DNA of 64,000 nucleotides, from NCBI GenBank assembly GCA_019054805.1, contig JAHQIY010000011.1:1679001-1743000 (forward strand), read 5' to 3'. Below are positions 50,252 through 55,832 of the stretch, in pieces; position 1 is the stretch's first letter, and every line of letters begins with the position of its first letter. The notes under the pieces are model-generated. The model was given only the letters and a program-made list of their open reading frames with translations, was not told the origin of the DNA and did not search any database. The DNA comes from Brachionus manjavacas. Taxonomy: Eukaryota > Rotifera > Eurotatoria > Ploima > Brachionidae. The position numbers were made by a program, and so were the translations under genes.

Positions 50252-53200
50252 ATGATTAAATATTTATTAATTTTAACTTTTTATATTGGATGCATTGACT
50301 CATCTTATGTTTCGGATAGAGCCGGTAAATTTTGTAAATTAAGATATCCAATGTACCTACTTAGTTAAATTTAAGTTGACTTAATGGCCAATTCTGAAGT
50401 AAGAAATGATATTAGAGTGGAGATTGTTGATGAAAAGTTCGACGGGACTAAATTTCCGGACAGGCTTCTATTAATTTTGAATCGATTTGAGCTAGATTTT
50501 GTAAAGTTCATAAAGCGTGGTCAAAATGCACATGGAGTTTATTTCATTGGCGAAGATGATAAGCTTACCAAACAGCAAAGGCAAGAATCAGAGGTTGTTT
50601 TTGAAAAAAAAAAAAAAAATATATTTTAATGATTATTTTTTGATAGTTTTTACAAGAATATATTGAAATGATGGGTGAAAATAGATTGATCTTGATTAAA
50701 GAAAAGCAGGAGAATACCGGTGAATTTTTCCGAATTGTAATTTTTCTATTAAAATTAACAAATTAAATCACTAAATTTTAAATAAAAATAGACTGGAAGA
50801 GTAGAAGTTGGCACTGACCAAGTTGATATTGATGTTATTCCAATTTTTAAAGCTGAAAGTAGGCACAAAAGATCATTGACTGAGCCAGTTTATCGAAAAA
50901 TAAATAAAGACAACAAAATATCGTTCAGTGCCGACAAAAATGTTCCTTCGAATTTTATCAAGAAAAATGGTATGATCGGTCAAATTTTTTTAGTACCTTT
51001 ATTTTTTTTGATATTAAGAGCTTGAAGATTTGAGAAAAAAAATGATTTCAAAAAATTTAAATTCTAAAAAATTGGCCAAATCTGGTGAACCAGTTGAGCT
51101 AGACGTGGAAGTACTTGTGGTCACCGATGTGTCTGTTTATTTAGCTCATAAAGCTTTCTTAAAAACCTCCAGTCAAAGCTTAGTTTTGAGCTATATGAAA
51201 ATTTATTACTCACATGTTATTAATAATGTAAAATATTTGAGAGTAATTTTTTTTGTTAACTTTTAATTTTTGTCTCAAGGTTAACAAACTGTTCCAAAAT
51301 TCGTTTTCAGATGACGCCGATTTGCGTATTAACATAAGAGCTACAAATTTTATATTCTTGACTGTGAATTTTTTTTTTTTAAAAAGTTATAAAATATAAT
51401 TAATTTGAATTTTAAGACGCAATCTGATTCCAAATGGAGCAATCAATCTTTTGTCGGAGATCCGAGAGTATCTTTGTATAAAGGCAAAAGAGTAATTCTT
51501 GGATCCAAAGCCCTAGAGTTTTTCAAAAGTTACATGGATGGAGTTGAGCTCAATTTTGATCATGCACTTGCATTTGTCAAGTATTTAATTGTAAATAAAT
51601 TATTTTTTTTAAATTAAATTAAACAAGTCATGATATATGGTATGATTCAGATGTTTCCAATAGCTACCTTACCAGATCATCGGCAACTGGCTTTTCTTAT
51701 TCCAGCGGCATTTGCACTCAATACAAGTTTTCAATTGTAGAAGATTTTGGTGCTTTTACAAACATCCCTGTAGAAAAAATTAAAAAATAATTTTTTTTTA
51801 AATTAATTTATTTTATTAGATAATAGCACATTATCTGGCTCGAAATTTGGGAGCATCGTTCGATTCATCGACTGACATCAATTGTCTTTCTGACCAATAT
51901 TACATCATGAGTCCTCTATTAAAATCATCAAGCACTAAATTTAAACACAGATTTTCGGAATGCTCTATTAACGAACTTAAAAGAATTCTCATTTCAAATG
52001 AACAAGCTTCCGCAGCTGGTCAATGCTTGATTAATAAAGCTATCTCTTTTAATTTAATCTCCAAAAATAACAACTTAACTGGTTTGTTCTACAGTGCAAA
52101 TGATCAGTGCAAGATGCTCCATGGTGACAATGCTTCATTTGTTCAAGTAATATTTTTTTAATCAAAAGTAAGAAAATAAGTAATTTTTTTTAAATGACAG
52201 TATTTTGCGGATAGAATGTGCAGAGAGTTGTATTGCCGAAAATCAAATCGCGACTACTATGCTTATACAAGTGGCCCTGCGGCAGAAGGAACCATCTGCG
52301 ACTCTGGCAAGGTACTTTTTTAAATATTTTTAAAATAAGCTCCCATCAATGACATACATCCGATTCAATCACTGCAAATCCATTCTTTTTTATTCAACAA
52401 TTTTTTAGATATTTAATTAATGTTTTATAATTAATTATATGTCTAAATTCTCATGAAAGAGAAAAAAAAAGTATTTTTGAACAGAAAATCAAAAATGACA
52501 TCATTAAGTAGAATCGAAAGACTTAAATTTTTGAGTGATAAATTTTAAGAGATTTGAAAAAATTCATGTCTAAATTTTTTAAAATTTATTTAAAAAAACG
52601 AATTTTGAGCTAAAAAATTTAGTTTTCTGCTTTTTTGTAAAACAAAATTAAACCATTTTTTTTAAAAACAATAATTTAATCCTTAGTTTCAGTTTTTGAT
52701 ACTAGGAATTCTTTCAGCAATTAATTTCTCAAAAAATATGATCTAAAAAATATTTTATTGATTTTATATTTTAAATATTTTGATGGAAATTTTTATAAGT
52801 GTATTTTTTTTTAATAAATTTTTAATTTAATTTCCTTTAATTCTCAAAATATTTAATTGGTATTTTTCTTCAAAATAAAGATTAACTGGAATGATTGTCA
52901 AAATTTTTTTAAATTCTCCTCTATTTTCACCAATTCGAAACCTTTTTCCAATTAACTATTCAAGTAGATACAAAAAAAATAATTTAGGATCTTTTTAATT
53001 TTTCACAAAAAAAAATATTTTTTAAATTCTTATCTATTTCTACCTTTAAATTGATAAAATCATGTAAACTTTAAATTGATGAATTACTATAAATTTTTAA
53101 AATTTTCATCATATGCATTAATTAGATTGGGGTTATTGGGTGACTGACATGACATGGCTGGCGATTTTTTTGTAATTTGATTTTTAGATTTTTATTACAT

Positions 53201-55832
53201 TTGAATAAATGAGACATAATTAAAATAACAAAAAATGATAATTTTTAATTTTTTTGGTTTGAAGGAAAAAATCACCTATAAATGAATTTTAGCCCATAAT
53301 TTTTTTTTAATCATGAAGGATACATCAGAATTTTTTTTCTAAAAAAATAAAACAATTTTTTTTATAAACATTTGATTTATCAAATTAAGAGCTCTTGAAA
53401 AACTTCAATTATCCTTTTAATAATTCAAAGAATAAAAGCCTACATTTTATAAAAAGGAAACATTAAGTCGAAAACAATTATTTTTGAAGATGGCAAAATT
53501 TTTTAATTAAAAAAAATTAAGAAGCTTAAAAAAATTTGCCAAGACATTAAATTTATAAGAAAAAATGTTTAAAATGTATTTTCAAGATATGTCAAAATGG
53601 AGCATGTGTATCGTCCGCCCTAGTTGAATCGAATGAATGTCCATTTGCAGACGAGCCAGTACAAAACGTATTCAGTTCCATCAGATTGCCTACCGCTCAT
53701 GTAAGCTGCTCAGAATATTTCGGATATCTGAATCGAGCAGGAATATCCATTAGCTCATTTTGTACTTCGTCATATTCTTACTCATGTTGCCGAAGTTGTT
53801 TACTTTATAAAGTATCAGAATGTCTCGACAAAAATTTCTACTGCCCATATTATCGAAGATTCTGTAACTTCTTTACTTACAGTGGAGATAAAATTGCTGA
53901 CATTTGTCCACTAACTTGCTCTAATTGTAAGTACAACTTTTTTTCCATTTAAAGGTCTACAAAAGACCACAAAACAGTTCATAAATAAAAAAATTAAATT
54001 AACTTTTTAATTTTGGAGTAAAAAACATAAAAGAGTTAACTTTATAATTTGAATTATTGAAATTTCAAAGTTATTTTGAGACAAACCAAAATATTTTTAA
54101 ATTTTAAATTAAAATTTTGTAATATATCTTTTTTCAATCCAGGCCCTCCTGTATCATGTCAAACTAACCAAACCATCTGTTTAAACGGTGGTACTTGTGT
54201 GGCCAAATCGAAATCAGAGCTATCCTGTTTGTGTCCTCAAGGATACACGGGAGCAGTATGCGAAAACAAAGATCCATGCACCCCCAATCCATGTCAAAAT
54301 GGCGCAAGCTGCAAATCGGCAGGCGAAACAGCCTACATATGTCAATGCACATCTTTTTTCATTGGTGATGATTGCTCCATCTTGAACTCCACCATCTCTT
54401 TTCCATCTTCTGATCCTTCAACCACCAGATTTTTTTCTACACCATCCACCACGCGACAGCCTAGCTCCTCAACTCCAACTCAAAGCAGATTTTCTTCAAC
54501 ATCCAGTTCATCTTCGAGTCCTTCAACTAGCCAAAGTGTAGCGCCAATACCAGGAGTAACAAACATTGGAAGAACCTGCATGCTTGGTAAAAATTATTCA
54601 TTTTGTGATGTGTGTGGTCGACAATTTGCAGATTCGAACGTAAGAATCGTCGGAGGAATCGATGCCAATCGAAACAGCTGGCCATCAATTGGCCTACTTG
54701 TTTTTGACTACATCACTACTTACAGCTTTCAAGGTTCCACGTACACAATATCGCGCCAGAGCTACTGTGGATCTACTCTGATCGATAGAAATACAGTTTT
54801 AACTGCAGCCCATTGTTACGTAAGTTCAATTTTTGTCCAGCAATTCGGTATCACAATCAATTTGGAAGATGATCCAAATTTTCCTGCCAATGCCTTCAAA
54901 GTCTATTTGGGCCTGCATAGTATTCAAGGGATTTTTGATGGAACTGCTGATATGACCGGTGTAACTGTTGTTCCTGTCACACAATTTAAAATGGTAATTG
55001 CCAACATTGTGTTAATGCAACAAAATAATATTTTTTCAAAAAATAGAAAATTTTAATTTTAATTAAAAATATTTGTGTGAAAAAAAAATTTTAAATTTCA
55101 ATTTAGCATGAAAATTACAACGATGATACATTTGATAATGACATTGCAGTTTTAAAACTTGAAAGAGATGTGCCTTTAAACTCTGGCGTACAACCAGTGT
55201 GCCTTCCGCCGAATACAGACTACGAGCCTAACACTAATACAAGAGCTTGGATTGCAGGATGGGGAACCTTGTCATTTGGTGGACAAACCCCTAATATTTT
55301 ACAAAATACCTTTGTTACTTATTACTACTCGGGATCGGAATGTAACAATTTAGGATCCTTGAATTTTGAAAAACAAATATGCGCAGGTAAAAATAATATT
55401 TTTTTAGCAATGATCGAATAAAATGACATGAAAATTTTTTTTCCAGGTGAAATTCAAGGTGGAAAAGATACTTGTCAAGGTGATTCAGGTGGTCCATTGT
55501 ATTTATTTGAAGACAATACCTTTGTTCAAGTTGGCATTACATCATATGGAGTTGACTGTGCTTTACCTGGATACCCAGGGTAATTTTACAGTAAAATTTA
55601 AATACATGAACAATTTTTTTGAGAAATTTTTTAATTTTAAAAATATTAGATTGAAAAATTAATTCTTCAAATAATGATAAATTATTTTAATTTAAAAAAT
55701 TAATTTTTTATTTGAATTTTTAAATTGTTCATGTATAAAAATTAGAAAAAATAAATGACTTAAAAAAATTTTCCATGTAGAGTTTATACAAGAGTCGCTG
55801 CCTATTTAGATTGGATCGTGAATAATATTTAA
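50252..55832 (+). CDS. Chimeric pseudo-ADAMTS / ShKT / EGF / trypsin protein
   Basis: Predicted 1,088 aa secreted protein from 15 exons: 50252-50324, 50376-50593, 50647-50736, 50792-50969, 51019-51242, 51280-51363, 51417-51580, 51628-51769, 51820-52146, 52201-52311, 53587-53926, 54143-54993, 55107-55386, 55447-55579, 55781-55832. Order: signal peptide ([14 protein letters not shown]), propeptide-like region, reprolysin-like domain with [14 protein letters not shown], degenerate zinc site H395[11 protein letters not shown] (normally HExxHNLGxxHD), met-turn YIMSP, ADAMTS cysteine-rich part ([14 protein letters not shown] joined to [10 protein letters not shown] across a phase-0 intron), ShKT-like domain (about 613-650), two EGF domains (655-690, 695-728), Ser/Thr-rich linker (about 730-785), then an S1 domain: R818/IVGG, His874, Asp946, Ser1041, Asp1035 at the specificity pocket. 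The metalloprotease half looks dead and the trypsin half looks active. Every exon join keeps frame, which argues for one gene rather than two. Confidence 0.85.
52312..53586 (+). other. 1.28-kb intron joining the ADAMTS-like and trypsin halves
   Basis: Donor ggcaag/gtactt and acceptor ttttcaag/atatgt, phase 0. It is the only large intron of the gene; the others are 36-281 bp. It splits a single ADAMTS motif (CDSGK / ICQNGACV), so it is not a gene boundary. Content is plain A/T-rich DNA. Confidence 0.75.

Follow-up and report, generated by a model that had tools for sequence, protein, structure and literature searches.

The genome of Brachionus manjavacas (Rotifera) contains a gene in which an M12B (reprolysin) metalloprotease domain with a ruined zinc site is followed, several modules later, by a trypsin domain that retains all of the residues checked. 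The gene lies at 50252-55832 (+) of the window, by which we mean the whole stretch of 64,000 nucleotides analysed (C11:1679001-1743000, GC content 28.5%; contig JAHQIY010000011.1 of an assembly of 114.17 Mb in 61 contigs). All relatives compared come from the same genome. We think it on balance probable that the gene encodes a secreted protein, a trypsin zymogen held by a non-catalytic stalk, and that the dead M12B part of this stalk places the enzyme. This reading builds on the anatomy of the gene as established by homology, the loss of the zinc site, the intact trypsin residues, the conservation of the dead domain, and the family and gene cluster to which the two halves belong, all as read from sequence.

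Fifteen exons, rebuilt from the window DNA, join in frame with GT-AG borders throughout (Table 1). A preliminary description of this DNA had proposed the same chain, which is borne out, and a product of 1,088 amino acids (aa), which is revised here to 1,083 aa. The exon 5/6 border of that first model leaves five extra residues (VKYLR) without counterpart in the family alignment. Because these residues align to a gap in the relatives, the exon 5 donor was moved to 51227 (AAT/GTAAAA), and the intron is then 52 nucleotides (nt) long, like its neighbours. Residue numbers of the trypsin follow the 1,083-aa model, and intron positions (e.g., 537) follow the 1,088-aa model. Relatives were aligned with a purpose-written spliced aligner, which returns the first model of the window gene exactly.

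The N-terminal part belongs to a large family. Matches to Pfam ADAMTS_CR_2 (hereafter CR_2), 32 in the genome, were grouped into approximately 25 loci including the window gene, and a search of the genome with the first 651 residues of the 1,088-aa model returned 58 matches, 9 of which are the gene's own exons. In the relatives examined downstream the order of modules is M12B, CR_2, a cysteine module, ShK and EGF, followed in several by a Ser/Thr-rich tail. The window gene shares this order and the intron positions, and thus fits an M12B-CR_2-Cys-ShK-EGF-mucin family. Its CR_2 domain scores 59.9 bits on the 1,088-aa protein and 63.1 bits when the trimmed region is searched, against a cut-off of 27.3. 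At the place of the ShK module, eight relatives exceed the Pfam ShK cut-off (one only together with its neighbours), and the fusion copy gives no match at E <=10. Four of the 25 loci were not fetched (C12:643779, C10:1199282, C2:1016729 and C7:4846753). The fetched and merged stretches number 23, of which 18 cover the active site; the others are C1:457961, C1:4684668, C14:1624500, C19:857000 and C6:4691500. One family member, L069 (C9:2583300-2586800), carries an array of nearly identical EGF repeats.

The 1.28-kb intron was said in the preliminary description to split one ADAMTS cysteine motif, so that the two halves belong together, and it does divide CR_2 at a family-wide position. An intron at this position (537, phase 0) is present in 10 of the 19 relatives that span the site, once with a length of approximately 1.0 kb (C6:2406987-2405969), and the remaining 9 read through; the weak member C6:4691500 is counted among the 19. 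Relatives with the same intron speak against treating it as a boundary between two genes. The next intron, between ShK and EGF (648-656, phase 1), has the same place and phase in 10 of 17 relatives spanning it. Exon 12 is a single open frame from the first EGF through the second and the linker to the start of the trypsin, with no stop, and 283 open codons, as in this exon, have a chance probability of about 1e-9 at the window stop rate of 0.0704 per codon in three forward frames. Read back from exon 11, the frame runs into a stop before any ATG. Homology supports the assignment of the N-terminal part and the trypsin to one predicted gene. Some introns of relatives are absent from fusion exons 9, 11 and 12, namely those at 452 (14 of 18 relatives spanning it), 610 (15 of 18) and 693 (5 of 12). 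The propeptide intron of a trypsin 11 kb downstream is also absent from the fusion and, with the one at 693, flanks the fusion point.

The zinc-binding motif confirms the earlier claim that the Glu and two of the three His residues are lost: the first His is kept, Glu is replaced by Tyr, the second His by Arg and the third by Phe. An alternative exon that would restore the motif was looked for, and no HExxH was found in any plus-strand frame from 50252 to 56000; the intron before the motif exon is only 50 nt long. A domain search of the full-length protein returned ADAMTS_CR_2, two EGF domains and trypsin. Reprolysin appears after correction and trimming (35.3 bits, cut-off 20.8), and on the full-length 1,088-aa model M12B gave no Pfam match even at E 10. 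No pro-domain was matched by Pfam above the cut-off in the pro-region.

The M12B domain is nonetheless complete, open across five exons, and retains all four of the family cysteines. With the zinc motif left out, its mean identity to nine intact members, picked for length and to avoid near-identical copies, is 0.378, and identity among those nine is 0.391 (sd 0.068, 36 pairs); with the motif included, the values are 0.383 and 0.413. These figures support the view that, despite the catalytic loss, conservation of the domain is close to that in intact relatives. Of the eight CR_2 cysteines, the second and the fifth are both missing. The same two are missing in one other relative and both are kept in the other 16 with the region. 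By order, we map them to Cys322 and Cys347 of ADAMTS13, a pair given as bonded in a study of that enzyme (PMC6706451). That both partners of a bond have gone, and not a single cysteine, is consistent with a domain still required to fold, two cases being modest evidence.

Dead zinc sites also occur outside the fusion. The site is readable in 19 members including the window gene, of which 15 keep HExxH and the third His and four, the fusion among them, are dead. The dead unfused members are a near-identical pair on C11 (980 and 1004 kb) and one at C3:8958 kb. They speak against the fusion as the only cause of zinc-site death, and the M12B domain may have died before the trypsin was added. In a tree of M12B domains, from which four short members (C1:4675, C1:4684, C14:1624 and C6:4691) were left out, the window gene groups with the C11 pair with support of 0.55, which is too weak to claim that one loss explains both. 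The two C11 copies (L062 at C11:1004 kb and L065 at C11:980 kb) lie in opposite orientation and have long Ser/Thr repeat tails; in the fetched stretches no first half of their M12B domain was found. The zinc site of the C3 member (C3:8953700-8960486, -) is dead in a different, third way (ARQIAQILGSDFD), and the nearest listed trypsin to this member is approximately 248 kb away.

The trypsin domain (Pfam E 1.8e-48) keeps the catalytic residues H869, D941 and S1036 and the pocket residue D1030 (Asp189 of the trypsin pocket), all four as previously reported. Also present are the equivalents of G216 and G226, which with the pocket Asp are trypsin specificity residues, the activation site R813/I814-VGG, and the trypsin disulfide cysteines. 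With all checked sites intact, the enzyme is apparently a working one. The CG cysteine of the propeptide and the equivalent of its partner, Cys122, are both present, and thus, by analogy with known serine proteases, the activated enzyme should stay linked to the stalk.

Table 1. Parts of the fusion gene in the window, with positions counted from its first nucleotide.
Feature	Position	Strand	Content
Exon 1	50252..50324	+	Start codon and signal-peptide-like stretch (by eye); without homology support
Exons 2-5	50376-50593, 50647-50736, 50792-50969, 51019-51227	+	Pro-region, furin-like RHKR (by eye), start of M12B
Exons 6-9	51280-51363, 51417-51580, 51628-51769, 51820-52146	+	Rest of M12B (reprolysin) domain, start of CR_2; intron positions common to relatives
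Degenerate zinc-binding motif	51829..51864	+	Expected HExxHNLGxxHD; from alignment to the family
Exon 10	52201..52311	+	Middle part of ADAMTS cysteine-rich domain 2 (CR_2)
1.28-kb intron	52312..53586	+	Phase 0, at GK/xC of CR_2; family-wide position
Exon 11, first part	53587..53820	+	End of CR_2 and cysteine module (CSEYF...CCRSC) common to relatives
Exon 11, end	53821..53926	+	ShK-type module; 54143-54144 complete the last Cys codon
Exon 12, first part	54143..54375	+	Two EGF-like domains (Pfam EGF, two stretches)
Exon 12, linker	54376..54576	+	Ser/Thr-rich, mucin-like, approximately 67 residues; resembles tails of relatives
Exon 12, trypsin propeptide	54577..54645	+	Tether-type cysteines; expected cleavage after R813
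Exon 12, end	54646..54993	+	First half of trypsin domain; catalytic His869 at 54811-54813
Exon 13	55107..55386	+	Trypsin domain; catalytic Asp941 at 55140-55142
Exon 14	55447..55579	+	Trypsin domain; pocket Asp1030 (55467-55469), Ser1036 (55485-55487)
Exon 15	55781..55832	+	End of trypsin domain and stop codon; AATAAA approximately 70 nt downstream

The label ADAMTS-like, given in the preliminary description, holds in part. Like ADAMTS-1, -4, -5 and -13, the fusion combines an M12B domain with the ADAMTS cysteine-rich (disintegrin-like) domain behind it, and a profile of 11 family members searched against the PDB finds ADAMTS-5 (E 7e-27), ADAMTS-1 (5e-25) and then ADAMTS-13 first. No thrombospondin type 1 repeat (TSP1) was matched by Pfam at E up to 10 anywhere in the window protein, and we therefore do not file the gene as an ADAMTS. 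Unlike those enzymes, it has ShK and EGF modules, a lost zinc site and a C-terminal trypsin, and it belongs to an expanded family of its own. Membership of the ADAMTSL proteins, which we take to be TSP1 repeats without a metalloprotease domain, was rejected given the M12B domain and the missing TSP1 match. Dead ADAMs such as ADAM22 and ADAM2 keep the metalloprotease fold without zinc catalysis and use it for binding or adhesion. The fusion resembles them in keeping the fold after loss of the zinc site, with ADAM22 only a weak PDB match (E ~0.3); we know of no catalytically dead ADAM that carries a second protease.

From the side of the trypsin, a close parallel is with mosaic S1A proteases (enteropeptidase, matriptase, plasma kallikrein), in which a propeptide disulfide holds a C-terminal trypsin fold on its modular stalk. 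In the PDB they are among the top matches to the trypsin part, and the fusion shares with them the C-terminal trypsin and the propeptide and Cys122 cysteines; to our knowledge, none of these has an M12B domain in its stalk. A cnidarian protein, Ap_Trypsin-like, is a ShK-TSR-trypsin mosaic described as a novel combination (PMC5446238); like the fusion, with its putative ShK-type module, it is an animal mosaic that ends in a trypsin. It differs in having TSR repeats, and the passage of that paper describing it mentions no metalloprotease domain. Our searches of the openly licensed PMC literature turned up no description of an M12B domain fused to a trypsin, and within that scope they agree with the earlier statement that no family with this domain order is known.

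Among the trypsin matches listed, the fusion is the only one of the 25 CR_2 loci with a trypsin beside the family member (2.1 kb away). At 20 of the 24 other loci the nearest listed trypsin is at least 29.5 kb away, and the other four are on contigs with none listed. Since 150 of 181 trypsin candidates were scored and the list of matches stops short of all of them, the counts are lower bounds and do not prove the absence of a nearby trypsin. Distances were checked for 92 trypsin places (91 of 157 matches listed and one more); the rest are, by eye, adjacent or no nearer.

By tree and alignment score the closest of the fetched trypsins, to which the trypsin tree is confined, is the one 11 kb downstream and beyond the window (C11:1746078-1747062, -), which is 0.488 identical over 295 columns and has the same GRTC..FCDVCG propeptide. 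It is apparently a stand-alone gene: the gene upstream of it looks like a metal transporter, and neither an M12B nor an EGF part was seen there (both by eye; its first exon is tentative). A single trypsin of the local cluster (PS2, C11:1741 kb) has all three introns of the fused trypsin, and the 11-kb neighbour has two. Given these shared introns and the relation to the nearest trypsin, the simplest origin would be the joining of a duplicated trypsin of the local cluster to the end of a family member, behind its mucin-like tail.

Other trypsins of the region were also noted. A likely multi-trypsin gene covers 60042-63435 (+) and runs on beyond the window to C11:1744121; one frame in it opens with the end of one trypsin domain and goes on into a second, which is probably dead because Asn (ILTAANCY) takes the place of its catalytic His. 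An exon at 30135-30965 (-) encodes trypsin sequence with its catalytic residues intact and branches with copies at C11:1775 kb and C6:610 kb, the former of which has a membrane-anchor-like stretch (by eye). Elsewhere in the window, frames resemble retroelement polymerase and integrase pieces (38113-40623, -, and 25759-26592, +; by eye), an opsin-type receptor (3308-4447, +) and a BAP1/UCH-type ubiquitin hydrolase (44633-46321, -), the last two assigned by eye with no family search.

We infer the following mode of action. The gene would produce a single secreted protein in which the dead M12B domain and the CR_2, Cys, ShK, EGF and mucin-like modules form a non-catalytic stalk for the trypsin. 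The trypsin would be made as a zymogen, cut after R813 and, once active, would cleave after Lys or Arg, and a disulfide between the propeptide and Cys122 would keep it joined to the stalk. We propose that, because the trypsin stays joined, the stalk decides where it acts.

Several alternatives must be weighed against this. The fusion may be real and expressed with its dead M12B domain as mere baggage, and the trypsin, on a stalk of EGF and mucin-like modules, would then be the working unit. We regard this as unlikely: inactivation without a trypsin in three other readable members, and the missing first M12B half in the two C11 copies, fit such a passenger, whereas the completeness of the fusion domain over its five open exons, its retained cysteines and its conservation do not. 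That same conservation without catalysis, together with a trypsin that is probably held covalently to the stalk by its cysteines, would also suit a regulatory pseudoenzyme, with the dead domain contacting trypsin, substrate or inhibitor and controlling activation or specificity rather than placement. Here the long Ser/Thr-rich linker and the several modules in between argue for independence of the two domains, and we give this account only a small chance.

Two adjacent genes could have been wrongly joined, or the region misassembled, as might be suspected from a 1.28-kb intron among introns of mostly ~50 nt, from the several trypsin genes nearby and from a gene known only as assembled. This is improbable in view of the intron position and phase shared with relatives, the read-through in others, the EGF and trypsin encoded in one exon, and the order of modules ahead of the trypsin, which recurs in relatives. 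A recently silenced, still intact-looking pseudogene is very improbable, given fifteen open exons with GT-AG borders and the preserved triad, pocket and trypsin disulfide cysteines; in its favour is that the gene is known as DNA of a single genome.

That restriction also weighs against the tethered-trypsin reading itself, in which binding, secretion and the disulfide are inferred, and other points do so too. Exons 1-3 are without homology support and exon 4 is supported by few relatives (alignments begin at query residue 136 or later). Distances between family members are large, so that constraint on the dead domain may have relaxed to a modest degree, and the stalk could be a passive leftover. 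Besides the low M12B sister support given above, the trypsin sister has support of 0.70, and another trypsin, L044 (C11:1117 kb), which is partial, reaches 0.497 identity over 149 columns, leaving the trypsin sister not beyond doubt. Of the preliminary interpretation we retain that this is a single gene, that its M12B domain is dead but conserved and that its trypsin is intact; ADAMTS identity is given up, and a role of the dead domain in binding or targeting stays a conjecture.

Dead proteases are common, and the reason for their retention is often unclear. The fusion suggests that a dead enzyme may survive as a handle by which a live protease of another kind is positioned or steadied. Tentatively, and with considerable doubt, it may represent a new class of composite protease that arose when a family member was joined to a neighbouring trypsin, and in which the pseudo-metalloprotease targets, or acts allosterically on, the serine protease covalently bound to it. 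The live, dead-unfused and dead-fused members of this family in one genome offer a natural comparison for the role of the fold after catalysis is gone.

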